From Rhizobium pisi (GTDB taxonomy: Bacteria > Pseudomonadota > Alphaproteobacteria > Rhizobiales > Rhizobiaceae), in the NCBI RefSeq assembly GCF_003938655.1, contig NZ_RJJT01000018.1:62001-126000 (forward strand): a DNA stretch of 64,000 nt. The letters are read 5' to 3'. The stretch's first letter is position 1. Every line of letters starts with the position of its first letter. Position numbers and translations under genes: made by a program. The notes beneath the pieces are model-generated. The model searched no databases. It was not told the DNA's origin and worked only from the letters and a program-made list of their open reading frames with translations. Shown here one piece after another: positions 17,255 to 32,604 of this stretch.

Positions 17255-17890
17255 ATGAAAACGGGTGAAGAAGAAGGCGCCTCGCGGCGGCCGATCGCGA
17301 GCCGGTCGTCGTCCTGGGCGATTGGCATGAGCGCGTGGCTGGCGCACAACGGTGCGACGCCGAACGGCATTTCGCTGCTCTCGGTCGTATTTGCCGGCAT
17401 CGGCGCAGCGCTCATCCTGTTGACAGCACATCCGATCGCCATGGTCTGCGCCGCGATTTCAGTGCAGCTGCGGCTGGTCTGCAATCTGCTTGACGGAATG
17501 GTCGCAATCGAAGGCGGCAAGAAAACCAAGTGCGGGCCGATCTACAACGAGTTCCCCGACCGCATCGCCGACAGCCTGTTTCTCGTTGCGGCCGGTTATG
17601 CCTGCGGCCTTGGCTGGCTCGGCTGGCTGTCCGCACTGCTTGCCGCGCTCACCGCCTATATCAGGGTCTTCGGAGGATCGGTGGGCCTTCCCCAGGATTT
17701 CAGCGGCATCATGGCAAAGCAGCGCCGCATGGCGGTCTTGACGGCGGGCCTCCTCGCCCAGAGCCTGGAGACGCCGATATCGGCCAGCCGCTGGTCGCTG
17801 ATCTTCGCCTCGGTCATCATCGCGGCCGGAAGCCTCGTCACCTGCATCACGCGCACGATCAGGCTCAACCGCTCCCTGGAGAGATCATGA
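17255..17890 (+). CDS. CDP-alcohol phosphatidyltransferase family protein (atypical motif)
   Basis: A 211-residue integral membrane enzyme of the family that transfers phosphatidyl from CDP-diacylglycerol to an alcohol. The catalytic motif reads NLLDGMVAIEGGKKTKCG, then PIYNEFPDRIAD. Against the canonical D-x2-DG-x2-AR-x8-G-x3-D-x3-D, the first and third Asp are Asn and the Arg is Ile. Several hydrophobic segments follow. ATG 17255 has GGGG upstream. Its stop overlaps the acyltransferase start (ATGA, 17887-17890). It opens a three-gene lipid operon. The alcohol acceptor is unknown. Confidence 0.88.
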   Translation: MKTGEEEGASRRPIASRSSSWAIGMSAWLAHNGATPNGISLLSVVFAGIGAALILLTAHPIAMVCAAISVQLRLVCNLLDGMVAIEGGKKTKCGPIYNEFPDRIADSLFLVAAGYACGLGWLGWLSALLAALTAYIRVFGGSVGLPQDFSGIMAKQRRMAVLTAGLLAQSLETPISASRWSLIFASVIIAAGSLVTCITRTIRLNRSLERS

Positions 17891-18507
17891 TCGCACTCAT
17901 CCGTCGCCTTCTCGTGCTGTTCGTCCGTATCATGGTCGGCGCCCGAAGCGAGTGGCGAGGCTGCGCGCCCGACACTCGCCGCCGCATCTATTTCGCCAAT
18001 CACAACAGCCATGTCGATACCGTCGCCGTCATGGCCGCCCTGCCATGGCCGGTGCGGCGGCTAACCCATCCGATCGCGGCGCGCGACTATTGGGGAACGA
18101 GCGCTTTTCGCCGCTTCATCGCGGAGAAAGGCCTGCGCGCCGTCCTGATAGACCGCAAGCCTCTGCCTGACAGCAACCCTCTGGAACCGCTCGAGCGCCT
18201 GCTCGAGGAGGGACGTTCGATCCTGATCTTTCCTGAGGGAACCAGAAGCGCCACCGATGAGATCGCCCCGTTCCGCAGCGGCATCTATCGCCTTGCCTGC
18301 CGTTTTCCTGATGTCGATCTCGTGCCGGTCCATCTCGACAATCTTCAGCGCATCCTGCCCAAGGGAAGCATGCTGATCGTTCCGATCACCTGCACGGCAC
18401 GCTTCGGCACGCCGCTGCGCGTCGAACCGGGCGAGGGAAAGGACGCATTCCTGGCCCGCGCGCGCGCCGCGGTCATCGAGCTTGCGCCAGGGGGGCCTGC
18501 CGCATGA
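17887..18507 (+). CDS. 1-acyl-sn-glycerol-3-phosphate acyltransferase-like protein
   Basis: A 206-residue PlsC-family acyltransferase. The catalytic HX4D motif is NHNSHVD (near residue 40) and the substrate-binding motif FPEGTRS (near residue 118). A short N-terminal hydrophobic segment (LIRRLLVLFVRIMVG) would anchor it in the inner membrane. It is coupled on both sides by 4-base ATGA overlaps. It would make phosphatidic acid for the CdsA-type enzyme encoded next. A larger open frame starting at 17530 is an artefact of the overlapping gene. Confidence 0.93.
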   Translation: MIALIRRLLVLFVRIMVGARSEWRGCAPDTRRRIYFANHNSHVDTVAVMAALPWPVRRLTHPIAARDYWGTSAFRRFIAEKGLRAVLIDRKPLPDSNPLEPLERLLEEGRSILIFPEGTRSATDEIAPFRSGIYRLACRFPDVDLVPVHLDNLQRILPKGSMLIVPITCTARFGTPLRVEPGEGKDAFLARARAAVIELAPGGPAA

Positions 18508-19433
18508 CCAGCTTTTTCCCGCTCGTCCTTGCTGCGATCCTCGGCCTCCTTGCCGTCGCCTCGGCCATAGGTTTCATCCTGCAACGGCGCGCGACCGAGC
18601 CCGGCTCCGTCGCCACCGTCCACAACCTCAATGCCCGTATCCGCTCCTGGTGGATCATGGTCGCGGTGTTCGGCGGCGCGATCCTGCTTGGCGATACCGC
18701 AGTGGACATTCTGTTCGCACTTCTGTCGTTCATGGCGCTTCGCGAATTCTGGACGCTGACGCCGTCACGGCGCGGCGATCACCAGGCACTCTTCCTGTCC
18801 TTCTTCGTAGTGCTGCCGGTACAATATGTGCTGCTCGGAACGCAGTGGTACGGCCTGTTTTCAATCTTCATCCCGGTCTACGCCTTCCTGATCCTGCCGG
18901 CGGTGGCGACCTTGACGGGGGATGTCAACGAATTCCTGGCGCGCACCGCCAGGGTGCAATGGGGATTGATGCTGACGGTCTATTCGATCAGCCACGCGCC
19001 GGCACTCCTCATGCTGCAGACCGGCACGCCGTCCGCGCTTCTTCTCGTCTACCTCGTCATCGTCGTGCAGCTTAGCGACGTCTTCCAGTATGTCTGGGGC
19101 AAGCTCCTGGGAAAGCACCGCTTCTCGCCAAACATCAGCCCATCGAAGACGCTCGAAGGGCTGATCGGCGGCGGCGCCTCGGCCATCCTCGTGGGAACGC
19201 TGCTCTATCGCCTGACGCCGTTCTCACCCCTGCAGGCGGCGGCCGTCAGCACGGTCATCGTCGTCGCGGGCTTCTTCGGCGGCTTCGTGCTCTCGGCCAT
19301 CAAGCGCGATCTCAATGCCAAGGACTGGGGCTACGTGATCGAAGGCCATGGCGGCGTGCTCGACCGCCTGGACTCCATCACTTTCGCAGCGCCGCTGTTC
19401 TTCCACATCGTCCGCTACTGGTTCACCAGCTGA
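18504..19433 (+). CDS. Phosphatidate cytidylyltransferase (CdsA family, YnbB-like)
   Basis: A 309-residue multi-spanning membrane protein that would form CDP-diacylglycerol from phosphatidate and CTP. The CdsA signature is complete near the C-terminus: SAIKRDLNAKDWGYVIEGHG, then GVLDRLDS. The SPSKTLEG motif is also present. It overlaps the acyltransferase stop by ATGA. Because essential rhizobial CdsA genes usually sit beside uppS/frr, this accessory copy in a small operon is more like E. coli YnbB. A hairpin terminator follows at 19438. Confidence 0.92.
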   Translation: MTSFFPLVLAAILGLLAVASAIGFILQRRATEPGSVATVHNLNARIRSWWIMVAVFGGAILLGDTAVDILFALLSFMALREFWTLTPSRRGDHQALFLSFFVVLPVQYVLLGTQWYGLFSIFIPVYAFLILPAVATLTGDVNEFLARTARVQWGLMLTVYSISHAPALLMLQTGTPSALLLVYLVIVVQLSDVFQYVWGKLLGKHRFSPNISPSKTLEGLIGGGASAILVGTLLYRLTPFSPLQAAAVSTVIVVAGFFGGFVLSAIKRDLNAKDWGYVIEGHGGVLDRLDSITFAAPLFFHIVRYWFTS

Positions 19434-19437
19434 GGAT

Positions 19438-19459
19438 ACGGCCGGCATGTCCCGGCCGT
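19438..19459. terminator. Bidirectional hairpin between cdsA-like and cbpM genes
   Basis: ACGGCCGG (19438-19445), a 6-base loop and CCGGCCGT (19452-19459) form an 8-bp perfect stem in the 26 bases between two convergent genes. The T-rich tail is short on either strand. Confidence 0.55.
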
Positions 19460-19783
19460 TCAAAACCGGTCGATATCCTCGAGGCTCTCGAACAGCCGGC
19501 GCTGAACGTCCCGTTCCTGCCGGCTGATCGCTGTCATCAACTTGCCCATCGTTCCCCGCAGGCCATGAAGCTGGTCAACCAGATCCATGACGACATCGAC
19601 GCCGGCTTCGTTGACGCCCATATTGCCCATGAGATCCAGGATGAGCCGGGCGCGGGCGACGTCGGCGTCGCGAAACCTCCGTCCTCCGCTCGAGGTCTCC
19701 GGGATCAGCCAGCCCTGTTCGATCCACAAATCGAGCTGGACCACATCGATTTTCAAGTAAAGACGGAATTCGAGATCATCCAT
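19460..19783 (-). CDS. cbpM: Chaperone modulator CbpM
   Basis: A 107-residue MerR-like adaptor that binds and inhibits the J-domain of CbpA-type DnaJ proteins. The pattern fits the family: N-terminal MDDLEFRLYLKIDVVQLDLW, then WLIPETSSGGRRFRDADVAR, then a coiled, DLMGNMGVNEAGVDVVMDLV-type helix. ATG 19783 has GGAGG 7 bases upstream and lies 2 bases after the dnaJ-like stop. The pairing with a CbpA homologue directly upstream makes the identification secure. Confidence 0.92.
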   Translation of the reverse strand: MDDLEFRLYLKIDVVQLDLWIEQGWLIPETSSGGRRFRDADVARARLILDLMGNMGVNEAGVDVVMDLVDQLHGLRGTMGKLMTAISRQERDVQRRLFESLEDIDRF

Positions 19784-19785
19784 GA

Positions 19786-20700
19786 TCAGGCCTCCATGTT
19801 CTTTCTCGGATCGTATGGATTCGCCGTCGTCCATTCCTTCACCATGTCCGTCAGCCGCTCGTCGGGAGTATCAGGCAGCACGATCTTCAGGGAGACGTAA
19901 ACGTCGCCGTGCCCGCCACCCCGTTTGGCAACGCCCTTGCCTTTGAGGCGCAGCAACTTGCCGGTGTTGGAATGAGGAGGCAATGTCAGGCTGACAGGCC
20001 CGGAAGGCGTGGGCGCGCGAACCTTACCCCCAAGCACGGCCTCCGAGAGCGAAATCGGCAGTTCCAGGCGAATGTCGTCGCCGTCGCGCGTGAAGAAGCG
20101 GTGCGGACGCACATGGATGTCAATGAGGGCATCGCCTGCCGGCCCGCCTCCGATGCCCTGCTCGCCCTTGCCGCGCAGCCGCAAGGTCTGGCCGTCGCGG
20201 GTGCCCGGCGGAATCTGCACTTCGAGCGCGGGGCCATCGGGAAGCTTGATCTCCGTCCTGGTGCCGTTGACGGCTTCGAGAAAGCCGACCTCCATGGAGA
20301 AATGCCGGTCCTGTCCATGGCTGCGGGCCCGCCCGCCACCGGCGCGGCGCGAAAAGAAGTTCGCAAAGAGATCGTCGGCATCGCCAAAATCAGCGAAACC
20401 GGCGCTGTTGTGATAGGGATCTTCGGGACCTCTCGCCGAGGCATAGTCGCGGTAATAGTTGCGCTGCGCCCGCTCGGCGCCCGTCATATCGATCTCGCCG
20501 CGGTCAAAGCGGCCACGCTTTTCCTCGTCGCCCAAAATCTCGTAGGCGGTCGAAATTTCCTTGAACTTTTCCTCGGCCTTTTTGTCGCCGGGGTTAAGGT
20601 CGGGGTGAAGTTTCTTGGCAAGCTTGCGAAACGCGCCTTGAATATCTTTTTGCGTCGCGTCCCGTTTCACGCCCAGAAGCTCGTATGGATCCTGGCTCAT
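19786..20700 (-). CDS. cbpA: CbpA-type DnaJ co-chaperone
   Basis: A 304-residue type II J-protein. The J-domain (residues 3-68) carries the HPD motif in [14 protein letters not shown] Gly/Phe-containing linker follows, then two DnaJ C-terminal substrate-binding domains ([20 protein letters not shown] and [17 protein letters not shown]). No zinc-finger CxxCxGxG repeats are present, which separates it from DnaJ proper. ATG 20700 has GGAG 7 bases upstream. It works with DnaK in stress or stationary phase and would be held back by CbpM, encoded next. Confidence 0.93.
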
Positions 20701-20793
20701 GCACATCTCCGGTCAGGGCAGAAAATACTGCCGGTTATCTTGCTGGAGATATAGGTTCCCGGGCGGCCGCCGGGGAGGGGAGGCCGTGGAAGG

Positions 20794-21240
20794 TTAGAGC
20801 GGCGGCGTGTCTTCCTGCGCCTGGTTGGGACGCCGGTCGATGAGAACCGAGCATCCGGCATGACGCACGACCTTTTCGACGATCGAGGAGAAGACGTAGT
20901 CGGTGATGTCAGTCACGTGAGATGAAAGCAGGATGAGATCGGCCGACTTCTCCCTGGCAGCCGATACCAGCAGCGAGGCGGCAATGCCGATGCGGACCTC
21001 GACGGTCGCCGGCACGGCGAGCTCCTTGCAGAGCGACATGAGTTTCTTCTCCGCCTCGACGAGGGCGGTCGTTTCGAACTCCTCGGGAAGGTCGGTCAGA
21101 TGGCGGCGCGGAATATTCTCGACGACGTGCATGACGATGATGCTGCCGCCGTCATCCACCAGCGCCGCAGCCCGTCGCAGGAGGCGGTTTGCCGTTTCGC
21201 GGGAACCCATGCCGATGGCGCAGATGATCGTCCGATACAT
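20794..21240 (-). CDS. Universal stress protein (UspA family)
   Basis: A 148-residue single-domain Usp. It begins MYRTIICAIGMGSRETANRL and has the central IVMHVVENIP and the strand SADLILLSSHV. The ATP-binding G-2x-G-9x-G-S/T motif is not evident (the region reads SSHVTDITDYVFSSIVEKVV), so it is probably the non-nucleotide-binding UspA type. An FNR/FixK-like box lies 63 bases upstream of the start, suggesting oxygen-limited induction. The gene is immediately upstream of, and co-directional with, dnaJ-cbpM. Confidence 0.92.
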   Translation of the reverse strand: MYRTIICAIGMGSRETANRLLRRAAALVDDGGSIIVMHVVENIPRRHLTDLPEEFETTALVEAEKKLMSLCKELAVPATVEVRIGIAASLLVSAAREKSADLILLSSHVTDITDYVFSSIVEKVVRHAGCSVLIDRRPNQAQEDTPPL

Positions 21241-21600
21241 GCAGTCAATACCTTCGAGTAGGAATGGCCTCGTCGATCATACCGATATCGACTGCGCCTG
21301 CTTTGACCGATATCAAGCAGAAACCTTGCGATATCGCAATGGCGCTCCCCTCAAAGGAGGAGCCGGCACCTGGTGTGCGGCCGGTCCAAGCCGCGCTTAT
21401 ATCTTCGCCGCGTCAGGCAGGCACCTTCCCGAAGAGAGCGCCTGGAGCGGCTGTTTTCTTCAGGTTTGCCAAGGCTGTGACGATTGCGTGAAACCGCTCG
21501 TAACTTGTGACAAAACCTCATCGGCTCTGCTATGTCAGGAAAAATGCGGCAACCCCAACCTGCGCCGCACTCTGTCTGACCAATCCCAGGAGTTTGAAAG
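21241..21600. other. Intergenic region between usp and yghU
   Basis: This 360-base gap holds the usp promoter region with the FNR/FixK-like box at 21303-21316. GATATC occurs three times within about 50 bases (21284, 21309, 21330). No protein-coding frame has family resemblance. The right end carries the AGGAG ribosome site of the GST gene. Confidence 0.6.
21303..21316. promoter_or_regulatory. FNR/FixK-type box upstream of usp
   Basis: TTGACCGATATCAA matches the anaerobox consensus TTGA(T/C)-N4-(A/G)TCAA exactly. Its centre is about 70 bases upstream of the usp start codon, which allows the usual activating position near -41 with a leader of about 25 to 30 bases. Confidence 0.65.
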
Positions 21601-22476
21601 ATGAGCGGTTCTCCCGAGTATGTACCCCCGAAAGTCTGGACCTGGAACAAGGCGAATGGCGGTCAATTCGCCAACATCAACCGCCCGATCTCCGGGCCGA
21701 CGCATGACAAGGAGCTTCCGATCGGCCGCCATCCGCTGCAGCTCTATTCGCTCGGCACGCCGAACGGCCAGAAGGTCACGATCATGCTCGAGGAACTGCT
21801 GGCGCTTGGCCATAGCGGCGCGGAGTACGATGCCTGGCTGATCAGGATCGGCGAGGGCGACCAGTTTGGCAGCGGGTTCGTCGCCGTCAACCCCAACTCC
21901 AAGATCCCGGCACTGATGGACCGCAGCGGTCAAAAGCCGATCCGCGTCTTCGAATCCGGCGCCATCCTCACCTATCTCGCCGAAAAGTTCGACGCCTTCC
22001 TGCCGACCGAGCCGAGCGAGCGCGCCGAATGCCTGTCATGGCTGTTCTGGCAGATGGGAAGCGCGCCCTATCTCGGCGGCGGCTTCGGCCATTTCTACGC
22101 CTATGCGCCTGTCAAGATCGAGTATGCGATCGACCGCTTCGCTATGGAAGTGAAGCGCCAGCTCGACGTGCTCGATCGCCGCCTCGCCGAAAGCGAGTAT
22201 CTGGCAGGCAACCAGTACACGATCGCCGACATTGCCGTCTGGCCCTGGTATGGCGGCCTGGTGAAGGGCTGGACCTACGGCGCGGCCGAGTTTCTGCAGG
22301 TCGAGGACTATAAGAACGTGCTGCGCTGGGCCGACACCATCCTCAGCAGGCCGGCCGTGCAACGCGGGCGAATGGTCAATCGCCTCTCTGGCGATCCCGC
22401 GAGCCAGTTGCATGAACGTCACGACGCCAGCGACTTCGACACGAAGACGCAGGACAAGCTTGCGGCCGCCGAGTAA
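21601..22476 (+). CDS. yghU: Glutathione S-transferase, YghU type
   Basis: A 291-residue GST of the YghU/Nu class, which have glutathione-disulfide reductase and peroxidase activity. A long N-terminal extension (YVPPKVWTWNKANGGQFANI) precedes the thioredoxin-fold domain with the Nu-class LYSLGTPNGQKVTIMLEELL. The C-terminal helical domain includes YTIADIAVWPWYGGLV. ATG has AGGAG 8 bases upstream. Single gene, followed by a strong hairpin. Confidence 0.94.
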   Translation: MSGSPEYVPPKVWTWNKANGGQFANINRPISGPTHDKELPIGRHPLQLYSLGTPNGQKVTIMLEELLALGHSGAEYDAWLIRIGEGDQFGSGFVAVNPNSKIPALMDRSGQKPIRVFESGAILTYLAEKFDAFLPTEPSERAECLSWLFWQMGSAPYLGGGFGHFYAYAPVKIEYAIDRFAMEVKRQLDVLDRRLAESEYLAGNQYTIADIAVWPWYGGLVKGWTYGAAEFLQVEDYKNVLRWADTILSRPAVQRGRMVNRLSGDPASQLHERHDASDFDTKTQDKLAAAE

Positions 22477-22517
22477 ACAGCGGGAGCTACCAGTTTCGGC
22501 TCTCTCTGAAATGAATG

Positions 22518-22548
22518 ATGCTCTGCCGCCTTAAAGGCGGCGGAGCAT
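22518..22548 (+). terminator. Hairpin after yghU
   Basis: A 14-bp stem joins ATGCTCTGCCGCCT (22518-22531) to its complement (22535-22548) with one G-T wobble and a 3-base loop. No T-run follows, so it may act with Rho or stabilise the 3' end. Confidence 0.55.
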
Positions 22549-22621
22549 GGCGCCACTTCTTGCCGCGAGGACACCGCTTGCGGTAGTCTTCGTCCCATTC
22601 GAGAGCGAACGGAACGGACCG

Positions 22622-23479
22622 ATGAACGACCATCCGCAGACGGGGAGCGCGAGAATCCTCGCGTCGAGCAGGGGGCGTGGCTGGCGCGGTCTGGAGGCTG
22701 AAATGTTGCGCATTCCGCCCGGCCGCACGCATATTTCGGGCACACCCTATCATCGCCTGGGAATCCATGTCGGTCGGCCAGTGCGGGCGCAATGCCGCTG
22801 CGACGGGCGGGAACATCGCCGCTTGCAGAAGCATGGCGATATCGACGTGGTGCCGGCCGGGCTCGATGGCGTCTGGGAGGATGACCGCGAGTGCATGATT
22901 CTGCGGCTGGCGATCAGCAAGGATCTCCTCCGCCAAGCCACCATAGACCTCGGTCGCGATCCCTCGGAAGCGGTCGTGCCGAGATTTCAGCTCCGCGATC
23001 CGCGGCTCGAGGCAATCGCATGGGCAGTGAAAGCCGAAATCGAAGCGGATGTGCCGTCCGACAATCTCTATGCTGATACGCTGGCGACGGCCCTCGCATT
23101 TCGCCTGATCGAGGCCGGCAACGGCACCTCTCGGCCAACGGATATCGGCAGGGCGCTCTCGTCGCGCCAGAAACGGCTGCTTGCCGACTATATCGAGGAT
23201 AATCTCGACACGCCGCTTTCGCTTGCCGAACTGGCGGCTCTGGCCGGGCTCAGCCTTTCGCATCTGAAAACGCAGTTCCGCGAAAGTTTCAGCATGCCGC
23301 CGCATCAATATGTGCTGCACCGTCGGGTGACCCGCGCCGAGGCGCTGATCCGGAACTCCAGCATGCCACTCAGCCAGATCGCGCTCGAAGCCGGCTTTGC
23401 GCATCAAAGCCACATGGCAAACAGCATGAAACGGCTGCTCGGCATTAGCCCCGGCGCCATTACCCGCGCGCGCAATTGA
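22622..23479 (+). CDS. AraC-family transcriptional regulator
   Basis: A 285-residue regulator. The C-terminal AraC DNA-binding domain (about residues 185-285) has two helix-turn-helices: SLAELAALAGLSLSHLKTQF, then SQIALEAGFAHQSHMANSMK with RLLGISPGAI. The N-terminal part includes LRIPPGRTHISG and a poorly conserved sensing domain. ATG 22622 gives a normal length; the open frame starts earlier at 22547 without a good ribosome site. Only about 100 bases separate it from the NmrA-like gene, its likely target. Confidence 0.9.
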   Translation: MNDHPQTGSARILASSRGRGWRGLEAEMLRIPPGRTHISGTPYHRLGIHVGRPVRAQCRCDGREHRRLQKHGDIDVVPAGLDGVWEDDRECMILRLAISKDLLRQATIDLGRDPSEAVVPRFQLRDPRLEAIAWAVKAEIEADVPSDNLYADTLATALAFRLIEAGNGTSRPTDIGRALSSRQKRLLADYIEDNLDTPLSLAELAALAGLSLSHLKTQFRESFSMPPHQYVLHRRVTRAEALIRNSSMPLSQIALEAGFAHQSHMANSMKRLLGISPGAITRARN

Positions 23480-23579
23480 TGAATATTGGCCGATCCTGCA
23501 ACGGATCGGCCGAATGCGCAGGCAATACTCCTGGCGCCAGCGCATTCTCCTCCGACTGCGAACAGACGAAGGAATGATC

Positions 23580-24455
23580 ATGTTTGTCATCTTCGGCGCC
23601 ACCGGCAAGGTCGGCAAGGCAACGGTAACAAAACTTCGGGCCGAGGGCGTTCCCGTCAGGGCGGCGCTCCGCGACCCCGCCAAGGCAGCACCCCTTGCAG
23701 CGATCGGATGCGAGATCGCCATTGCGGAGATCGGCGATGTCGATGCCATGGCCGACGCCATGAGGGACGCGACGGCCGTTCAGCTCATCTGCCCCATCGA
23801 CCCACGCGCGGCGGATGCCGGCGGCCACATGCTGCAATCGATCGAGCGGATGGCGGAAGCGATCGATGCTGCCCGGCCGCCACGCGTCCTGGCGATCTCG
23901 GATTACGGCGCCCATCTTGCGATCGATACCGGCATTACCAGCATGTTCCGCGCGATGGAGGGGCGGTTCCAGCAGTGCAGCGCGGGTATGATCTTCCTGC
24001 GTTCGGCCGAACATATGGAAAACTGGGCACGCTACCTGAAGATCGCCGGTGAGACCGGCGTGATGCCGAGCATGCACCTGCCGCTGATACGACCCTTCCC
24101 GACCGTCTCCGCTGCCGATATCGGCGGCATGGCCGCCGAACTTTTGCTGGCCGACGAGGGTCACGGCCCTTCGCCGCGGATCGTCCATGGCGAGGGGCCG
24201 CGCGAATACACGGCGGTGGAGATCGCGGTAGCCTTGGGGCAGTTGTTGACCCGAAGCGTCGTCGCACGCGAACTGCCGCGCGCCGACTGGCAGGCAACGC
24301 TTATGCGCGCAGGGCTTTCGGAAAGTTATGCCGATCTGATCGTCAGGCTCAACGATGTGCACAACAAAGGCATGATAGGAGCCGAAGCCGGCGTCGGCGA
24401 ATTGCGCCATGGCCGCACCGATATTTCCGCCGCCCTTGAGCGATTTCGTCCTTGA
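23580..24455 (+). CDS. NmrA-like NAD(P)-binding protein
   Basis: A 291-residue atypical short-chain dehydrogenase of the NmrA/quinone-oxidoreductase-2 type. The N-terminal dinucleotide-binding loop is VIFGATGKVGKATV. The usual catalytic YxxxK is not obvious, so it may be a redox sensor, or a reductase using another mechanism. ATG 23580 has AAGGA 6 bases upstream; ATG 23574 overlaps the ribosome site. The AraC-type gene upstream is the likely regulator. Confidence 0.85.
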   Translation: MFVIFGATGKVGKATVTKLRAEGVPVRAALRDPAKAAPLAAIGCEIAIAEIGDVDAMADAMRDATAVQLICPIDPRAADAGGHMLQSIERMAEAIDAARPPRVLAISDYGAHLAIDTGITSMFRAMEGRFQQCSAGMIFLRSAEHMENWARYLKIAGETGVMPSMHLPLIRPFPTVSAADIGGMAAELLLADEGHGPSPRIVHGEGPREYTAVEIAVALGQLLTRSVVARELPRADWQATLMRAGLSESYADLIVRLNDVHNKGMIGAEAGVGELRHGRTDISAALERFRP

Positions 24456-24513
24456 GCCCAGCGGGGGCGTCCCGTGACGTTTCGCGTAAGCGCATTGCGC
24501 GATGATAGAGCCT

Positions 24514-25425
24514 CTACCGGCGAACCAGCCATTTCTTGGCAACACGGCAAGCCATCGTATAAGCCGGGTCGAAGACGTTGCCGACGTCGTAACGCACGAC
24601 CTGACCCAGCAGATGGCTGGCCGCCGTCCTGTCCAGGCCGTAGTCCGACGCCAGCCAGCTCAACATCTCACTGGTGGCATGCTGGAGCGCCTGATCGAGG
24701 GGGCGGGCATTGCCGATGGTGAAGATGTCTTCGGCGGTTTCCCCGCGCGGCCAGACCAGCCCGGCCTTCTTTTCCACGGTCAGCCGCACCGTGACTTCGA
24801 ACGTCGTTTCGATGCCGGTTCCGACGATCTCGCCATCCCCTTGCACGGCATGGCAGTCGCCGAGGAAAAAACGGGCGCCAGGGGCAGCGACCGGGAACCG
24901 GACCGTAGTCCCCGGACCGAACAACCGGTAATCCATGTTGCCGCCATATTCGCCGCTGGTCGCAGTCGATATCGCCTGGCCGAGACTGGGCGCCACGCCA
25001 AAACAGCCGATCATCGGGGCGAGGGGAAGGACGAAATCTTCAAGGCCGACGACCGGCTCGGAAAGCCGGACTGTCATTGCCTCGCGGTCGATGGCCCAGA
25101 TCGCCATATCGCCCGGCGGCAGGTCACGAACCGTCTCGGGATCGACGACATTGGCCGCGACGACACTGCGGGTAAATCCCGTATCCCTGGTCGGGATCAT
25201 GCTGACGATCTCAACCTTGAGCGCATCTCCGGGTTCCGCGCCCTCGACGAAGATCGGGCCGTTCATCGGGTTTGGGCCGGATGCTCGCTTGATGCCGTCC
25301 CTGTCGTACCCGATGGCATCGAGCGTCTGCGTGACGACGGTGTCGCCGTCGGCGACGTGCAGTGCCGGCGCAAGAGTGCCGATGACATTGTGATAGACCG
25401 TCGGAATGAAGCGGTGGGTGGTCAT
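24514..25425 (-). CDS. Acetamidase/formamidase family protein
   Basis: A 303-residue FmdA/AmdA-family amide hydrolase that would release ammonia from formamide or acetamide. Family blocks NPMNGPIFVEGAEPGD, APMIGCFGVAPS, GGNMDY and FFLGDCHAVQGDGEIVGTG are all present, the last containing the usual metal-binding Asp-x-His. ATG 25425 is taken as start because the conserved part begins close behind it. Convergent with the NmrA-like gene. Single transcription unit. Confidence 0.92.
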   Translation of the reverse strand: MTTHRFIPTVYHNVIGTLAPALHVADGDTVVTQTLDAIGYDRDGIKRASGPNPMNGPIFVEGAEPGDALKVEIVSMIPTRDTGFTRSVVAANVVDPETVRDLPPGDMAIWAIDREAMTVRLSEPVVGLEDFVLPLAPMIGCFGVAPSLGQAISTATSGEYGGNMDYRLFGPGTTVRFPVAAPGARFFLGDCHAVQGDGEIVGTGIETTFEVTVRLTVEKKAGLVWPRGETAEDIFTIGNARPLDQALQHATSEMLSWLASDYGLDRTAASHLLGQVVRYDVGNVFDPAYTMACRVAKKWLVRR

Positions 25426-25594
25426 GATACAGCTCTGCCTCGTTTCGCATCTCATTGGCCCGCGGCCGAACGCCCGGCGGAGCGTTGGAGAATAGATCAG
25501 AGATCGTTTGGGATGCCAACATCCGTAGCCCGCTCCGAATTGCTGTCGGCTATCAATTCGACGCGGCGCGGCAAGAGGCGCGGGCAGGCTACGA

Positions 25595-26131
25595 TTACGA
25601 CTCGTCACGCTGGGCGCGCAGATTGGCAACGACGCGCCGGTTCTGCACTTTGCAGGAGCGCTCCGTGCAGTCGCGAACTTCACGGTCGTTGCCGTAACCC
25701 CTGGCCCACATGCGCCTTGCATCTACGCCCTTCGAGGCGAGATAGGCCATCGTCGCATCGGCGCGCTGCTGCGACAGCGTTTTCATCTTGGACTCGGACC
25801 CGGAATCGTCGGCAAATCCCTGCAGCTTGATCAGCCAGCTCGGGTTCCTGTTGAGCCAGGCGGCCTGATTATCCAATGTCGCCATGGCGACGGAATCAAG
25901 CTTGGCGGAGTCCTGTGCGAAATAGATCCGCCTGCCGACGTTGAGGATAAAATCCTCTTCGCTGCCGGTCTTGACGCTCTCGAAACCAGGCGCGGGATCG
26001 TTGGTCTGGCCAGTCATCGGCGCGGCGGGAGGTTCCTCTACGGAAGCGACATCGGTGGTGGTGCAGGCGGTGAGCGCCAAAAGCATGGCCGCAGCGAGGA
26101 GGCGGCTCTTGTATCCGGTCGAAGCAGGCAT
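25595..26131 (-). CDS. OmpA-family lipoprotein
   Basis: A 178-residue outer-membrane lipoprotein. The signal peptide ends in the lipobox LTAC (Cys near residue 23). A short linker is followed by an OmpA C-terminal peptidoglycan-binding domain (about residues 65-170) with ISTYFAQDSAKL-like strand IYFAQDSAKLDSVAM, GFADDSGSESKM, LSQQRADATMAYLASKGVD and the final NRRVVANL. It would tether the outer membrane to peptidoglycan. It lies 13 bases after the L,D-transpeptidase gene in the same orientation, giving a small cell-envelope operon. Confidence 0.93.
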   Translation of the reverse strand: MPASTGYKSRLLAAAMLLALTACTTTDVASVEEPPAAPMTGQTNDPAPGFESVKTGSEEDFILNVGRRIYFAQDSAKLDSVAMATLDNQAAWLNRNPSWLIKLQGFADDSGSESKMKTLSQQRADATMAYLASKGVDARRMWARGYGNDREVRDCTERSCKVQNRRVVANLRAQRDES

Positions 26132-26144
26132 CAGGGCATATTCC

Positions 26145-26810
26145 TTATTCGACCGCGTTTACTTCTGTGACTGGAGGCGCCTGGTCGGCAATATGCGGCA
26201 GAACCTGCACGGCGGTGCCGATCGGGCAACGCTGATAAAGATCGATGGCGTCCTCGTTGAACATGCGGATACAGCCGCTGGAGGCATCCTTGCCAATGCT
26301 CCAGGGCTCCAGCGTGCCATGGAAACGATAGCCGGTGTCGACACCGTCGCGATGCAGATACATGGCTCGGGGGCCAAGTGGATTCTTGGGTGAACCTCCC
26401 GCCACGGACTCTGGCAGTTCGGGATGGCGCTTGCGCATCTCCGGCGGCGGTGTCCAGAGCGGCCAAAGCGATTTAGCGTCGATCGTGGCGCGGCCAAACC
26501 ACTTGAAGCCATCGCGGCCGACGCCGACGCCGTAGCGAATGGCTGTCTTGTTCTCCATGATCAGGTACAGGAAATGATGCCTGGTATCGACGACGACGGT
26601 GCCGATCGGCTCACTGCTGAAATATTTGACGACCTGGCGGTGCCACTGCTTGTCGATCTTGGCGAAGTTCGTCGCTCGAAACGTCACGCCGTTGTCGACG
26701 GCGGTGCCGGCAAAATAGGAAGACGCCTGCGCGTATACCGGCTTCTGGAAAGCGCCAGCGCCAAGTAACGCCAAACCGCCAAGCAAAATATTCCTGCGGG
26801 TCCACTCCAT
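26145..26810 (-). CDS. L,D-transpeptidase (YkuD domain)
   Basis: A 221-residue periplasmic enzyme forming 3-3 peptidoglycan cross-links or attaching proteins to peptidoglycan. The N-terminus MEWTRRNILLGGLALLGAGA with RR before a hydrophobic stretch looks Tat- or Sec-directed. The YkuD core runs from about residue 70 to 200, with YRFHGTLEP and the catalytic SSGCIRMFNEDA, in which Cys and Arg are kept and the usual His before Gly is Ser, as in many alphaproteobacteria. ATG 26810 is chosen because the upstream extension is not signal-like. Confidence 0.92.
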   Translation of the reverse strand: MEWTRRNILLGGLALLGAGAFQKPVYAQASSYFAGTAVDNGVTFRATNFAKIDKQWHRQVVKYFSSEPIGTVVVDTRHHFLYLIMENKTAIRYGVGVGRDGFKWFGRATIDAKSLWPLWTPPPEMRKRHPELPESVAGGSPKNPLGPRAMYLHRDGVDTGYRFHGTLEPWSIGKDASSGCIRMFNEDAIDLYQRCPIGTAVQVLPHIADQAPPVTEVNAVE

Positions 26811-26933
26811 CGGCAATATCCCCCAAAGCCAAGCAGCGAAATGGCAGTAAAACAGATTTTTCAATTGCCACAACAGAAAATTCCCCGGCACCGGTCCTTT
26901 TGCGGGACTGATGAGCAAAGAGCATCCTACTGG

Positions 26934-27539
26934 CTATCGGGCGGCCGCCTCGCGAATGCCGGCGCGGATACGGTTGATGATCGTCCACACGAGAAGTAGA
27001 GCCGCCACTGCCCAAAGCCACGAAGTCCATGCTGCAAATGGACCACCCGCCGCGACAAAGATACCGAGCGCGCCGAAGAGCACCGCACGGTCGCTCTTGC
27101 CCAATGGCCCGTCGTAGCGCCGGCTTGCGCCGACCGCCTGACCCAGAATGCCGGCAAATTCCGTCAGTGCCGAGAGGAATATGACGGCCATTGCCGGCAG
27201 CAAGCCATTCGGATCGATGAGCGCAAACGGCAGATACAGGGCGACATCCGACACGACGTCACCGATTTCGTTCAGATACGCGCCTAAAATGCTCTTCTGC
27301 CCATGTTCGCGGGCAAGCATGCCGTCGATGGCATTGAGGCCCATGCGCAGCAGAAACCACACGGGCACCAGCAGGAACCAATGCGGAAGCGGGGCGACGC
27401 TCAGAAAAAGGCCCAATGCAATCGAGACGACAGCGGAAACTGAAGTCACCTGATTGGCGGTGACGCCCCGTGCCGCAAGGGCGCGCACAAGAGGACGAAG
27501 AATATTCTGAAATCGGGACTTCAATTGATAGACAGACAT
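26934..27539 (-). CDS. CDP-alcohol phosphatidyltransferase family protein (YnbA-like)
   Basis: A 201-residue membrane enzyme, the same length as E. coli YnbA as I recall it. The motif reads NAIDGMLAREHGQKSILG, then AYLNEIGDVVSD. Against D-x2-DG-x2-AR-x8-G-x3-D-x3-D, the first and third Asp are Asn, exactly as in the paralogue at 17255, but here the Arg is kept. About six hydrophobic segments surround it. It is divergent from the YnbC-like hydrolase-methyltransferase gene across a 200-base gap. It would move phosphatidyl from CDP-diacylglycerol to an unknown alcohol. Confidence 0.88.
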   Translation of the reverse strand: MSVYQLKSRFQNILRPLVRALAARGVTANQVTSVSAVVSIALGLFLSVAPLPHWFLLVPVWFLLRMGLNAIDGMLAREHGQKSILGAYLNEIGDVVSDVALYLPFALIDPNGLLPAMAVIFLSALTEFAGILGQAVGASRRYDGPLGKSDRAVLFGALGIFVAAGGPFAAWTSWLWAVAALLLVWTIINRIRAGIREAAAR

Positions 27540-27739
27540 GCTACCTCAGTGGAATTTCGTGGCATCGGAAAAGTCTATCCCGGCTCGGGCGGTGCAGATC
27601 GTCGTACTCTTGAGGAAGGCCACACTTCATACCGTCTCTCGCAAAGGGCTTACATTTGCGACTAGACTTTTGCAATGAAGACAAATCACTGTTCCGCCAA
27701 TGGTTGCAACCCACCCACCAGTCAGAATTGGAGAAGACC

Positions 27740-29524
27740 GTGCTGCAGACTGCCGATAGTGTGCAACCGCCCTCGACGGCCAGACCAATGCGTGAATCCG
27801 AATTCGAGTCGCATGACGGCACCCGACTGTTTTATCGGACGTGGCCTTCGACGGGCGTCGCACCGAAGGGCGCAATCATTCTTCTCCATCGCGGGCACGA
27901 GCATAGCGGCCGCGTCGCCCATCTCGCCACCGAGCTCGGCCTCGATGATTTTTCCTTCTACGCCTGGGATGCACGCGGCCACGGGCGTTCACCGGGAGAG
28001 CGCGGCTATTCGCCATCCTTTGCTGCCTCGGCGCATGATCTCGATTGCTTTGTCCGCCATGTCAGCGAGACAAGCGGTATCTCAGTCGAAGACATCGCCG
28101 TCATTGCGCAGAGCGTCGGCGCGGTCCTCGCCACCACCTGGGTGCACGACTATGCACCGCCGATCCGTGCGCTCGTGCTTGCCTCACCGGCCTTCAGCGT
28201 CAAGCTCTACGTGCCTTTTGCCAAAGAAGGCATTGCGCTCTGGGAAAAGCTCAAGGGAACGTTCTTCGTCAATTCCTATGTCAAGGCAAAGTTCTTGACG
28301 CATGACCCCGAGCGCATCGCCTCCTACGAATCCGACCCATTGATATCTAGGCCGATTGCCTCCAACATCCTGGTGCAGCTCTATGAGGCGGCAGCCCGCG
28401 TCGTCGGCGACGCCCGCGCCATCACCGTTCCGACCCAGCTGCTGATCTCCGGCAGAGACTGGGTGGTGCGACACGCACCGCAGCACCGGTTTTACGAAAA
28501 CCTCGGCAGCCGCATCAAGGAACGGCATGTGCTTGCCGGCTTCTACCATGACACGCTTGGCGAAAAGGACCGTGCGATTGCGCTCGCCGAGGTCCGCCGT
28601 TTTATCGAGGCGCGTTTCGCCGAGCCCCGGGCACCTGCCGACCTTCGCACCGCCCATATCCAGGGCTACACCAAGGACGAAGCCGACCGGCTCGCGAGCC
28701 CGCTTGATGCCGCATCCCCACGGGGCATCTACTGGGTGCTCAGCCGCCTCAACATCAAGATCGGCGCCTTGGTGTCCGAAGGCATAAAGACCGGGGTCAA
28801 GACCGGTTTTGATTCGGGTTCGACGCTCGATTACGTCTACGAGAACAAGCCGCGCGGGCTCGGTCCCGGCGGGCGCATGATCGACAAGGTGTTCCTCGAG
28901 GCGATCGGCTGGCGCGGCATCAGGCAGCGCAAGCTGCACTTGCAGGAGCTGATCGACCGCGCGCTGCAGCGCCTGAAAGTAGCCGGCCGCAGTACCAATA
29001 TGCTCGACATAGCGGCCGGGCACGGCCGTTATGTCCTTGATGCCATCGAAATGGCTGCCGTGCGTCCCGACAGTGCACGTTTGCAGGACTATTCCTCCAT
29101 CAACGTCGACGCCGGCCGCAAGAGCATTGCCACACGTGGACTGAGTGATTTCGTGAGCTTCCGCCAACAGGATGCCTTTGACGGCGAGGGGCTGGCTGCA
29201 ATCACGCCGGCTCCGGATCTCGCGATCGTCTCCGGCCTTTACGAGTTGTTTTCCGACAATGCGATGATCGCCGCCTCGCTCAACGGGATCGCCCGCGCGA
29301 TGCGGCCGGGTGGTCTGCTTGTCTACACCAACCAGCCATGGCATCCGCAACTGGAGATGATCGCCCGCGCACTGACCTCCCACCGCGGCGGCGAGGCGTG
29401 GGTGATGCGGCGGCGGACGCAAGAGGAAATGGACCAGCTGGTCGCCGCAGCCGGTTTTCGCAAGATCGAACAGCGCATCGACCAGTGGGGCATTTTCACT
29501 GTCTCGCTGGCCGAGAGAGTCTGA
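27740..29524 (+). CDS. Alpha/beta hydrolase-methyltransferase fusion (YnbC-like)
   Basis: A two-domain protein of about 594 residues. The N-terminal half is a serine aminopeptidase/monoglyceride-lipase type hydrolase with AIILLHRGHEHSGRVAHL, WDARGHGRSPG and the nucleophile region VIAQSVGAVLATTWV. The C-terminal third is a class I methyltransferase with SAM motif NMLDIAAGHGRYVLDAIE. E. coli YnbC has about the same size and, as I recall, the same layout. GTG 27740 with GGAG 6 bases upstream is the preferred start; an open frame reaches back to 27656. The gene is 9 bases before the PAP2-phosphatase gene. It may trim an acyl chain and methylate a lipid headgroup or product (inference). Confidence 0.87.
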   Translation: MLQTADSVQPPSTARPMRESEFESHDGTRLFYRTWPSTGVAPKGAIILLHRGHEHSGRVAHLATELGLDDFSFYAWDARGHGRSPGERGYSPSFAASAHDLDCFVRHVSETSGISVEDIAVIAQSVGAVLATTWVHDYAPPIRALVLASPAFSVKLYVPFAKEGIALWEKLKGTFFVNSYVKAKFLTHDPERIASYESDPLISRPIASNILVQLYEAAARVVGDARAITVPTQLLISGRDWVVRHAPQHRFYENLGSRIKERHVLAGFYHDTLGEKDRAIALAEVRRFIEARFAEPRAPADLRTAHIQGYTKDEADRLASPLDAASPRGIYWVLSRLNIKIGALVSEGIKTGVKTGFDSGSTLDYVYENKPRGLGPGGRMIDKVFLEAIGWRGIRQRKLHLQELIDRALQRLKVAGRSTNMLDIAAGHGRYVLDAIEMAAVRPDSARLQDYSSINVDAGRKSIATRGLSDFVSFRQQDAFDGEGLAAITPAPDLAIVSGLYELFSDNAMIAASLNGIARAMRPGGLLVYTNQPWHPQLEMIARALTSHRGGEAWVMRRRTQEEMDQLVAAAGFRKIEQRIDQWGIFTVSLAERV

Positions 29525-29533
29525 GGGCAAAGC

Positions 29534-30862
29534 GTGGAGAAGGTACGTTCAACTTTTTCCCAGTCCGCGCTGGTCCCGAAGCGGGCGGCACTCTGGCTCG
29601 CCTTCCTGGCGCCGTTCTTCTATCTGAGCTATGGCGGCGCCAATTGGCTGGCATCGCAACGCGCTCATGTACCGAACGTCGCCTTCGCATGGGAAAGCGC
29701 CATTCCGTTCCTCGGATGGACTATCATTCCCTATTGGTCGATCAATCTGTTCTATGCGCTCTGCCTGTTCATCAACACGACACCGCGCGATGTGGATATG
29801 CTCGCGAGGCGTTACCTGACGATCCAGATAATAGCCGTCGCCTGCTTTATCGCATTTCCGCTCGAAGCGACCTTCGTGCGGCCGGCAACGAGCGGCTTGC
29901 CCGGTTTCATGTTCGCCGTCCTCGGTGGCTTCGATAAGCCGTTCAATCAAGCGCCGTCGCTCCATATCGCGCTCCTGGTGGTGATCTGGGATCATCTGCG
30001 CGGCCGGCTGCCGCGGAAGGTGCGGCTTCTCTGGCACCTCTGGTGCTTCCTGATCGGTGCCTCCGTGCTGACCACGTGGCAGCACCACGTCATCGACATA
30101 CCGACCGGCATGCTGCTGGGTCTGTTTGCCGTCTGGCTTTTTCCGCGCCATGCCGGTTCGCCTCTGGCGGCCTTTGCAATGGGCGACGATCCAAAGTCGC
30201 GCCGTCTCGGCATCTATTATCTGTGCGGTGCCGTCGCATTTCTCGGCCTTGCGGCGCTCTGCACTCCTCTCTCGCCAGCAGCGCTTCTATTGCTCTGGCC
30301 GGCTGTTGCCCTGGCGATCGTCGCAGTCGGATATTTCGGCGCCGGCCCGCGGATATTTCAGAAACGCGTCGATGGCCGGGCGACACTTGCCAGTCGCTGG
30401 CTACTGGCACCCTACCGGCTCGGCGCTTTTATCAACATTCGGCTCTGGACCTGGAGAATGCCGGAATCCGTGGTAATCGCTGACGGCGTCCATCTCGGTC
30501 GTTTTCCGCGTCGCCACGAGGCCAACCGTTTTGCCACGGTGATCGACATTACCGGCGAACTTCAGCGCCCGAGCGGGACGCTCGCGCGCTGGTGCAGCTT
30601 TCCCACCCTTGATCTTACAGCCCTCGACAAGATCCAGACGCTTGCCGCGGCGAACCTCCTCGAGGCTGTCCGCCAGCAGGGACCGGTCCTCGTCTGCTGT
30701 GCGCTCGGCTTCCAGCGGAGCGCCGGCGTCATCGTGCGTTGGCTGCTCATCAGCCGACGTTGCGACGATGCTGCCGAAGCGCTGCGACTGATCGAACGGG
30801 CGGGGTGGCGCGTTCATCTGCCCGTGGAAAGTCTCCATGCCGTGACGGAGGGCCTGCGATGA
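29534..30862 (+). CDS. PAP2-dual-specificity phosphatase fusion (YnbD-like)
   Basis: A 442-residue membrane protein. The N-terminal half has several transmembrane segments and a PAP2 phosphatase core with PSLHIALLVVIWDH and VLTTWQHHVIDIPTG, containing the two catalytic His. The C-terminal cytoplasmic part is a dual-specificity/tyrosine phosphatase with the CX5R loop in VLVCCALGFQRSAGV (Cys and Arg kept, the usual preceding His replaced by Cys). The layout matches E. coli YnbD. The start is GTG 29534, with GAGGG about 7 bases upstream. It could dephosphorylate a phosphatidyl-X-phosphate, as PgpB or PTPMT1-type enzymes do. Confidence 0.88.
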   Translation: MEKVRSTFSQSALVPKRAALWLAFLAPFFYLSYGGANWLASQRAHVPNVAFAWESAIPFLGWTIIPYWSINLFYALCLFINTTPRDVDMLARRYLTIQIIAVACFIAFPLEATFVRPATSGLPGFMFAVLGGFDKPFNQAPSLHIALLVVIWDHLRGRLPRKVRLLWHLWCFLIGASVLTTWQHHVIDIPTGMLLGLFAVWLFPRHAGSPLAAFAMGDDPKSRRLGIYYLCGAVAFLGLAALCTPLSPAALLLLWPAVALAIVAVGYFGAGPRIFQKRVDGRATLASRWLLAPYRLGAFINIRLWTWRMPESVVIADGVHLGRFPRRHEANRFATVIDITGELQRPSGTLARWCSFPTLDLTALDKIQTLAAANLLEAVRQQGPVLVCCALGFQRSAGVIVRWLLISRRCDDAAEALRLIERAGWRVHLPVESLHAVTEGLR

Positions 30863-31299
30863 CGCAGTGGAAGATGACAGCCTCGGCCGCCGCGCGAAAT
30901 CTCGGTCGCAATTCAATCTTCTCCGGGCTGACAGCGCTGCTCCCACTGATTGTCGGCCCGATCATCATAGGATATCGAGGCTTCGCTCCATCGTTCGGCT
31001 GGCTCTTGATGCTAGTTTTCTTCGTGATAGTCCTTGCGCTGGCTGTCCATCTCCTCTTCGATGCGCTGCTGTTTCGCCTCGCGTCGAGCCACGAGACGGA
31101 GACCGCCGGTCTTGCCGCCGTCGACGACCTGTTGTTCCGTATGCAGCTTCGCAAGCCTGACAGGACGCCGCCTGGCCTTGAGAGGCGTATTGCCGGATCG
31201 CGCCGCATCGTCTGGCAGCAGCGTATTGTGCTCGCCATCTATCTCGTGATTTTCGCGATCCTTCTGCTCGATGTGACCGACGGCCAGCCGCTATGCTGA
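30859..31299 (+). CDS. Small integral membrane protein of the lipid locus, unknown function
   Basis: A 146-residue protein starting MTQWKMTASAAARNLGRNSI. Three hydrophobic segments are visible: about residues 22-42 (SGLTALLPLIVGPIIIGYRG), 46-68 (GWLLMLVFFVIVLALAVHLL), and near the C-terminus (RIVLAIYLVIFAILLLDV). The ATG overlaps the phosphatase stop by ATGA (30859-30862), so it is translationally coupled and probably acts with it. No family is recognised. Confidence 0.75.
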   Translation: MTQWKMTASAAARNLGRNSIFSGLTALLPLIVGPIIIGYRGFAPSFGWLLMLVFFVIVLALAVHLLFDALLFRLASSHETETAGLAAVDDLLFRMQLRKPDRTPPGLERRIAGSRRIVWQQRIVLAIYLVIFAILLLDVTDGQPLC

Positions 31300-31539
31300 A
31301 TCGCAGGCCGTTGATGCAAGCGCTTGCCGGCGCGTGTCTGGCAGGTCTTGCCAGCACCATCACGGATGTCATCCCGATCTGGCGCAGACCAGCGACTTCG
31401 CTGCGCCGGCGGCGCGCATGCGACGCGACAGGCCGAGGCGCTGGTTTATTCCAACCGGGCCTGGCACGCGCTGGGTCCGGTGGTCGACGCCGCCTCGGCG
31501 CCGGTGCTGTTGTGGCCGGACGATTCTGCGACCTTCTGA
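31293..31539 (+). pseudogene. Possible broken secreted-protein gene after the lipid locus
   Basis: An ATG at 31293 overlaps the stop of the membrane protein (ATGCTGA). It opens a signal-like peptide, MLNRRPLMQALAGACLAGLA. The plausible continuation changes frame twice: PDLAQTSDFAAPA around 31370-31410 in another frame, then HATRQAEALVYSNRAWHALG and on to SATF, stopping at 31539, in the third. Such a pattern fits a small exported protein gene broken by two frameshifts, or sequencing errors. No family is recognised. The call rests on reading-frame pattern only. Confidence 0.3.
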
Positions 31540-32524: not shown

Positions 32525-32604
32525 AACAATAACGAATATAAATCGCCGAAAAAATTATCAAGCACTCTATTTCGGCCTGTTAGGTTCTCGTCATTGGAGG
32601 AGTC

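Follow-up and report, generated by a model that had tools for sequence, protein, structure and literature searches.

Two loci in a 64,000-nucleotide stretch of Rhizobium pisi DNA (the window) together carry the gene content of the Ynb/Arc1 cluster, and we judge it somewhat better than an even bet that they constitute a trans-split accessory phospholipid pathway for membrane defence. YnbA, YnbC, YnbD, the small membrane protein, PlsC and YnbB are all encoded in the genome, although not contiguously, as a gap of 7.5 kb separates the two loci in the window.

Gene Content of the Two Loci

Locus 1 consists of three forward-strand genes, namely PT1, a CDP-alcohol-transferase-like protein (17255..17890; PF01066, CDP-OH_P_transf, 22.2 bits, with the cut-off at 22), a PlsC-type acyltransferase (17881..18507; PF01553, 63 bits), and a YnbB-type CDP-diacylglycerol synthase (18504..19433; PF01148, 213 bits), with the start of ynbB overlapping the plsC stop by 4 nt. 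An apparent PlsC-YnbB fusion ORF was rejected as an alternate-frame artefact, the two being separate ORFs in different frames. Locus 2 comprises ynbA on the reverse strand (26934..27539; CDP-alcohol-transferase-like, 31 bits), a divergent intergenic region of 200 bp (27540..27739), and three forward-strand genes: ynbC, a hydrolase fused to a Methyltransf_20 domain (27740..29524; PF12146, 233 bits; PF12147, 476 bits), ynbD, a PAP2-like membrane domain fused to a dual-specificity phosphatase (29534..30862), and a gene for a small membrane protein (30859..31299; 146 aa, some three hydrophobic helices), which follows ynbD in the conserved set. The ORF list and the profile searches placed all seven genes where a previous sequence-only reading of this DNA had put them. 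No edge repeats of 11 bases or more were found around the 26934-31315 block in the stretches compared.

The close homologues of PT1 are mostly 209-211 aa long, in agreement with the ATG at 17255. The conserved start of ynbC at 27740 is GTG in the relatives and ATG in one, and 10 of 25 relatives have in-frame stops (+33 to +78) 5' of it, so that the first in-frame start, TTG at 27656, is unlikely to be used. Within the clade, an alignment revealed a conserved block near TTTGCxxCTAGACTTTTGCAA 5' of ynbC.

The likeness to E. coli YnbABCD proposed in that reading was borne out by BLASTP against E. coli K-12, which gave identities of 47% over 193 aa for YnbA, 40% over 302 aa for YnbB, 55% over 575 aa for YnbC, and 37% over 413 aa for YnbD. 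Homologues of all four proteins of E. coli ynbABCD (b1408-b1411) are thus present, at similar sizes (201, 298, 585 and 430 aa in E. coli; 201, 309, 594 and 442 aa in the window). PT1 was ruled out as the YnbA orthologue, as its match to YnbA covers only 79 aa at 35% identity; the gene at 26934 encodes YnbA. The E. coli locus differs in that it has neither PlsC nor the small membrane protein and in that its ynbB stands between ynbA and ynbC; in the window, ynbA is divergent, and ynbB is found next to plsC and PT1 at a distance of 7.5 kb. A match to ynbC of the E. coli operon occurs in 4559 of 5426 complete genomes. We found no product assignment for ynbABCD or arc1 in the literature searched, which was largely open-access. 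The accessory nature suggested in that reading is supported. Other members of both enzyme families lie elsewhere, the whole genome having five genes with PF01066 and two with CTP_transf_1.

A Usually Single Cluster Elsewhere and Its Likeness to arc1

In other bacteria, these genes usually form a single cluster. As counted with true-frame PlsC and YnbB queries, plsC-ynbB adjoin ynbAC in 57 of 80 Rhizobiales loci and all six genes are present in 53; 22 loci are split, and one is ended by a contig boundary. Among 14 further loci of the phylum, 12 share the five enzymes and their order with these. The order in the Pseudomonas-type loci is YnbA-YnbC-YnbD-small protein-PlsC-YnbB; we call this family (f34) Pseudomonas-like because the homologues of its small protein that bear species names are nearly all from Pseudomonas. 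The small protein itself, which had no match in Pfam or NCBIfam, has homologues in 32 of 35 loci in one set and, in another, in 75 of the 80 Rhizobiales and 10 of the 14 further loci, as well as in Pseudomonas. PlsC and the small membrane protein are therefore usual members of the cluster. The sequence-only reading had described the acyltransferase and a second transferase as additions, which holds for PT1, a gene foreign to the set, and fails for PlsC.

The conserved six-gene order fits that of P. aeruginosa arc1A-F (PA2541-PA2536), the PAO1 locus being compared by gene descriptions: PA2540 is described as a putative phospholipase and PA2536 as a probable phosphatidate cytidylyltransferase. 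The published PAO1 arc1 primers had no good match among the loci sampled here. The name arc1 stands for antagonism resistance cluster 1, which has a published phenotype: six genes, five of them predicted to be phospholipid-related, which defend against type VI secretion attack under Gac/Rsm control (PMC8926400). Unlike this one Gac/Rsm-controlled cluster, the window has two loci, which include an additional transferase and a plsC-ynbB pair distinct from the one there.

Pairing of the Two Loci and Loss of PT1

The ynb cluster of the R. leguminosarum/etli clade lacks plsC-ynbB, and a separate, mostly plasmid-borne PT1-plsC-ynbB cassette is found instead. Among 148 Rhizobium genomes sampled, 42 carried ynbC and 50 the cassette. 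All 42 ynbC genomes had the cassette, with a cassette YnbB of at least 93% identity, and the claim that the two loci belong together therefore passed the co-occurrence test. The loci lie on different contigs in 40 of these 42 genomes. In the YnbB tree, the window YnbB has a clade of its own (support 97), and 25 in-cluster copies from Rhizobiales form another (support 100), so the cassette plsC-ynbB pair is not orthologous to the in-cluster copies; the deeper placement of the window clade is unsure because of long branches.

We considered whether the loci are functionally unrelated and co-occur merely through inheritance by one clade. Such independence would suit the occurrence of locus 1 on plasmids (116 PLSDB records), the location of locus 2 at one site in about 20 of the 32 loci compared (including one on a finished chromosome), and the 8 of 50 cassette genomes that lack locus 2. 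Set against it are the adjacency of plsC and ynbB to ynbACD outside the clade, the absence of ynbC from all 98 cassette-free genomes, and the persistence of plsC-ynbB through every PT1 deletion seen, and we regard it as improbable.

Of the 42 ynbC-positive genomes, 18 have lost PT1 by deletion. The deletions differ in size, with at least six sizes seen; 12 of the 18 are in frame, and the tree implies no fewer than 6 changes. By content, the 50 cassette genomes divide into 24 with PT1 and ynbC, 18 with ynbC only, 8 with PT1 only and none with neither. In two of the 32 genomes counted as retaining PT1 (G109 and G155), a stop codon interrupts the window frame at residue 11, indicating either that a later start is used or that the gene is damaged. 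Loss in 0 of 8 genomes without ynbC versus 18 of 42 with it gave p of about 0.02 in a one-sided hypergeometric calculation; the tree lends no independent support to the idea that PT1 loss follows from ynbC as a statistically independent effect, and we accordingly claim repeated loss rather than a proven correlation with ynbC. In contrast, plsC and ynbB are stop-free in all 50 cassette genomes (plsC over the aligned part), and the median dN/dS of ynbB is 0.037-0.063, with 0.046 in genomes without PT1. The repeated deletion of PT1 alongside intact plsC and ynbB suggests that plsC-ynbB probably serve YnbA, although the contrast is confounded by descent.

The Transferase Motif of YnbA and PT1

YnbA and PT1 have the six-helix CDP-alcohol phosphotransferase fold and depart from the family signature D1xxD2GxxAR...GxxxD3xxxD4 in the same way: D2 and D4 are kept, while Asn replaces D1 and D3 in 94 of 94 YnbA and 120 of 120 PT1 homologues listed, the latter reading NxxDG...GxxxN. 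E. coli YnbA has the same Asn motif. We therefore label both proteins CDP-alcohol-transferase-like.

In the fold comparison of YnbA, phosphatidylinositol phosphate (PIP) synthases ranked first. Arg151, paired in the alignment with Arg155, a phosphate-binding residue of PIP synthase, is invariant (94/94), and Arg190 is present in 93 of 94. The scores against the NCBIfam PIP-synthase equivalogs, 69.8 and 46.6 bits, were below the cut-offs of 180 and 170, and bacterial PIP synthase (PgsA1/PIPS) has Asp at motif positions 1 and 3, where YnbA has Asn. Inositol phosphate is an unlikely acceptor, since neither this genome nor the E. coli control gave a match to inositol-1-phosphate synthase (PF01658), although inositol phosphate may come from a different source.

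The Asn residues raise the question of whether YnbA and PT1 are not the usual catalysts and instead bind CDP-diacylglycerol with one metal, in a regulatory or channelling role, or take a different donor. All 7 B-type cassettes examined likewise have Asn at both positions, whereas a further two PF01066 proteins encoded in the genome (presumed PgsA and PssA by their motifs) keep Asp, and the eight canonical residues are called absolutely conserved in PMC4634129. The second Asp, the presumed catalytic base and Arg151 are invariant, however, which is not expected in a dead enzyme, and we hold a non-catalytic or otherwise altered role to be unlikely. The earlier statement that every step of the pathway is encoded is weakened, since it presupposes ordinary CDP-alcohol chemistry and two of the four metal-binding Asp are absent from both transferases.

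Features of the Other Enzymes

PlsC retains the HX4D and FPEGTR motifs of 1-acylglycerol-3-phosphate acyltransferase and would convert lysophosphatidate to phosphatidate; its score against NCBIfam TIGR00530 (54 bits) is under the cut-off of 103. YnbB, a CTP_transf_1 protein, conserves the C-terminal CdsA signature, SAIKRD...KDxG...GHGGxxDRxDS. As for the link of YnbB to a membrane glycolipid that the sequence-only reading mentioned for E. coli, overproduction of YnbB raised the glycolipid MPIase there, and deletion of ynbB caused no significant change (PMC6362211). A role of YnbB as a backup route to an MPIase-like glycolipid, which would also leave YnbA, YnbC and YnbD unexplained, is accordingly very improbable.

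In YnbC, Ser153, Asp268 and His298 (numbered from TTG 27656) are invariant in 95 of 95 loci, and the best matches of the hydrolase domain among solved structures are monoacylglycerol lipases. This triad, together with PlsC in the set, could point to acyl-chain repair, in which the YnbC lipase strips chains and PlsC re-adds them, so that lysophospholipids are removed or phospholipids remodelled after phospholipase or pore damage, with YnbA and YnbD only recycling headgroups. Antagonism resistance by arc1 is in keeping with this, one gene exceeding the cut-off against the Tle3 phospholipase and one against ColA, although no single B. thailandensis effector mutation relieved the arc1 defect (PMC8926400). 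Repair further leaves the dedicated CDP-diacylglycerol synthase and the conserved methyltransferase unexplained, and the E. coli ynb locus yielded no PlsC; we consider this explanation doubtful.

YnbD has the CX5R active site and the fold of a dual-specificity phosphatase, with a DSPc score of 25.4 bits, below the Pfam cut-off of 33.5. Its PAP2 region scores weakly (22.0 and 20.9 bits, under the Pfam cut-offs), and parts of the membrane region have a pLDDT below 50. Relative to the PAP2 motifs KX6RP-PSGH-SRX5HX3D, PSLH and HisxxxAsp are invariant and the first motif is variable. The structure comparison rows (Foldseek, VIA-align) span residues 304-442 only and barely cover the membrane part; within them, the Z of PTPMT1 is level with that of many protein phosphatases. 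PTPMT1 is the phosphatidylglycerophosphate phosphatase that removes the terminal phosphate in mitochondria, and YnbD differs from it in carrying the fused PAP2-like membrane domain.

A Proposed Pathway and Its Significance

In the trans-split pathway that we favour, PlsC and YnbB, encoded by overlapping genes, would turn lysophosphatidate into a dedicated CDP-diacylglycerol pool, from which the PIP-synthase-like YnbA would transfer the phosphatidyl group to a phosphorylated polyol. YnbD, through its dual-specificity phosphatase domain, would take off the terminal phosphate, as PTPMT1 does; YnbC may trim or methylate the lipid, and the small membrane protein may be a scaffold holding the enzymes together. 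By analogy with arc1, the lipid is probably made under envelope attack. In this clade, the original plsC-ynbB would have been replaced by the pair from the plasmid-borne PT1-plsC-ynbB cassette, whose own transferase, PT1, would have turned dispensable, with its loss now under way.

More tentatively, YnbA and PT1 may represent an unrecognised branch of CDP-alcohol phosphotransferases with two invariant Asn, which, with the dedicated PlsC-YnbB, the phosphatase and the methyltransferase, could make an undescribed, methylated or otherwise modified, envelope-shielding phospholipid in E. coli, Pseudomonas and rhizobia. The replacement of Asp by Asn calls into question a signature that has been called absolutely conserved. 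The proposed pathway would link three orphan observations, the E. coli ynbABCD operon, the Pseudomonas arc1 defence cluster and the rhizobial locus. Rhizobium would provide a natural experiment in which the CDP-diacylglycerol-making half has been swapped and the competing transferase repeatedly deleted, giving a genetic handle on which transferase takes the PlsC-YnbB product.

Gene identities and the single-cluster form

Sequence and profile matches bore out all seven genes that the sequence-only reading had described at 17255-19433 (locus 1) and 26934-31299 (locus 2), whose closest named homologues belong to the R. leguminosarum/etli group. By comparison with the E. coli K-12 ynb locus, the gene at 26934 is YnbA (47% over 193 aa), the gene at 18504 is YnbB (40% over 302 aa), the fusion gene is YnbC (55% over 575 aa), and the PAP2-phosphatase gene is YnbD (37% over 413 aa). 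PT1, the second CDP-alcohol-transferase-like gene (17255..17890, + strand), showed a distant likeness to YnbA (35% over 79 aa). A whole-genome search detected more transferases and a second CTP_transf_1 gene outside these loci, presumably housekeeping copies. The likely start of ynbC is GTG 27740, preceded by GGAGAA, rather than TTG 27656, because in-frame stops follow the latter, as far as +78, in 10 of 25 relatives. In Rhizobium hidalgonense (L017), ynbC carries an in-frame TGA at +573, reflecting a pseudogene or a sequence error. Upstream of ynbC (27540-27739), a clade-conserved block near TTTGCxxCTAGACTTTTGCAATGAA was largely kept in loci L024-L035, not further out, and is possibly a regulator site or promoter. 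The genes at 31574-34526 (a LysR regulator, an intradiol dioxygenase, and an iron alcohol dehydrogenase family gene) resemble an aromatic (hydroxyquinol-type) degradation cluster.

With YnbC as the query, 80 named Rhizobiales loci (the best of 453) were compared: plsC-ynbB adjoined ynbA-ynbC in 57, with ynbA divergent in 33 and all six genes detected in 53; three of the remaining four were without a recognised small protein, and one without ynbD. Another 22, all named Rhizobium, comprised ynbA-ynbC-ynbD-small protein without plsC-ynbB, and one was interrupted by a contig end. Across the phylum, a Methyltransf_20 protein was present in 17 of 299 sampled genomes. Longer stretches were examined for 14 of these (the other three belong to the window's genus), and the order YnbA, YnbC, YnbD, PlsC, YnbB was observed in 12, 10 of them with a recognised small protein; the exceptions were L119, without YnbD, and L118, in which only YnbA and YnbC were seen. 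The L110 family was taken as Pseudomonas because the named homologues of its small protein are nearly all from that genus.

The arc1A-F cluster of P. aeruginosa (PA2541-PA2536) fits this order, the PAO1 side being known here from gene descriptions, where a probable phosphatidate cytidylyltransferase is assigned to PA2536 and a putative phospholipase to PA2540. In the parts of PMC8926400 consulted, arc1 is a Gac/Rsm-controlled antagonism-resistance cluster identified by Tn-seq, five of its six genes relate to phospholipid metabolism, and no mechanism is given. The E. coli ynb locus holds four of the six cluster genes. A ynbC match was obtained in 4559 of 5426 E. coli genomes (867 had none at the search sensitivity used); in NZ_CM146015.1 (H21), an IS5 element separates the two parts of the match.

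Split and replacement of plsC-ynbB

ynbC and ynbA occurred in the same 42 of 148 Rhizobium genomes, and all 42 carried a YnbB sharing 93% identity or more with that of the window, supporting the earlier proposal that the two loci belong together. Eight further genomes had window-type YnbB without ynbC, 91 had a YnbB at 55-60% and no ynbC, and seven had neither ynbC nor a YnbB above threshold. The loci lay on separate contigs in 40 of the 42 genomes, which in drafts does not prove separate replicons, and on one contig only in the window genome and in G245, taken to be R. vallis. Locus 1 had matches in 116 plasmid records, of which 114 are from Rhizobium, and locus 2 was covered at 80% or more in only two. 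Relative to a finished chromosome (L021), the left flank of the 4.4-kb ynb block was common to 20 and the right flank to 21 of 32 named loci. The block is sited elsewhere in the window (26934-31315, near locus 1) and in R. vallis (L030, same contig as locus 1); no repeats of 11 bases or more were found in the edge stretches compared for 26934-31315.

In a survey of YnbB copies in 29 genomes, the single split genome had the window type, and 27 of the 28 non-split genomes had one YnbB each, at 54-58%; the other, G252, had an additional, broken copy. In the tree, window-type YnbB formed its own clade (97*), distinct from both the clade of in-cluster copies (100*) and that of the 55-60% type (100*), with long branches making its deeper placement unsure. 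The separate clade and the single copies indicate that the plsC-ynbB pair was replaced, not merely relocated. A second cassette type, PlsC-YnbB-small ORF-PT1B, was read at seven loci (L134-L140) in genomes without ynbC; its YnbB type is present in 91 of the 148 Rhizobium genomes.

Loss of PT1 and the transferase motif

The window genes were aligned to the locus in all 50 genomes with the window-type PT1-plsC-ynbB cassette. No stop was present in plsC or ynbB in any of them. A complete or almost complete PT1 remained in 32, two of which have a stop at residue 11, and the gene was deleted in 18, with at least six deletion size classes (569, 492, 411, 387, 366/369, and two compound); 12 of the 18 deletions kept the reading frame, and the 569-base deletion overlaps the plsC alignment by about 5 bases. 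At least six changes of PT1 state were required on the plsC-ynbB tree. Median dN/dS in the PT1-less genomes was 0.046 for YnbB and 0.100 for PlsC, indicating purifying selection, as in other genomes. These data suggest that PT1 is dispensable. ynbC was present in all 18 genomes lacking PT1; PT1 occurred with ynbC in 24 and alone in eight, and no genome lacked both. Counting against this reading, the contrast is confounded by descent, because the eight ynbC-less genomes fall within a 14-genome clade without any PT1 loss, whether ynbC is present or absent.

The family motif, D1xxD2GxxAR...GxxxD3xxxD4, is called absolutely conserved in PMC4634129 and PMC6506517, with metal bound by the first three aspartates and the fourth serving as the base. 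Asn occupied D1 and D3 in YnbA at all 94 loci with a match, including E. coli, in 120 of 120 PT1 homologues among the matches listed, and at 7/7 loci of the second cassette type. Alignment to the structure 6h53 placed N69 on D68 and N90 on D89. Asp is retained in two further transferases encoded by this genome, the presumed PgsA and PssA. No mention of Asn at these positions of YnbA or PT1 was found in the literature searched, which left most subscription papers outside its scope.

Taken together, the two-locus observation holds and the two loci go together, but they make up an already known, undeciphered system, called Ynb in E. coli and Arc1 in Pseudomonas. New here are its trans-split form with a plsC-ynbB pair that was replaced, a competing transferase lost repeatedly, the link drawn between arc1 and ynbABCD, and the Asn-for-Asp motif.
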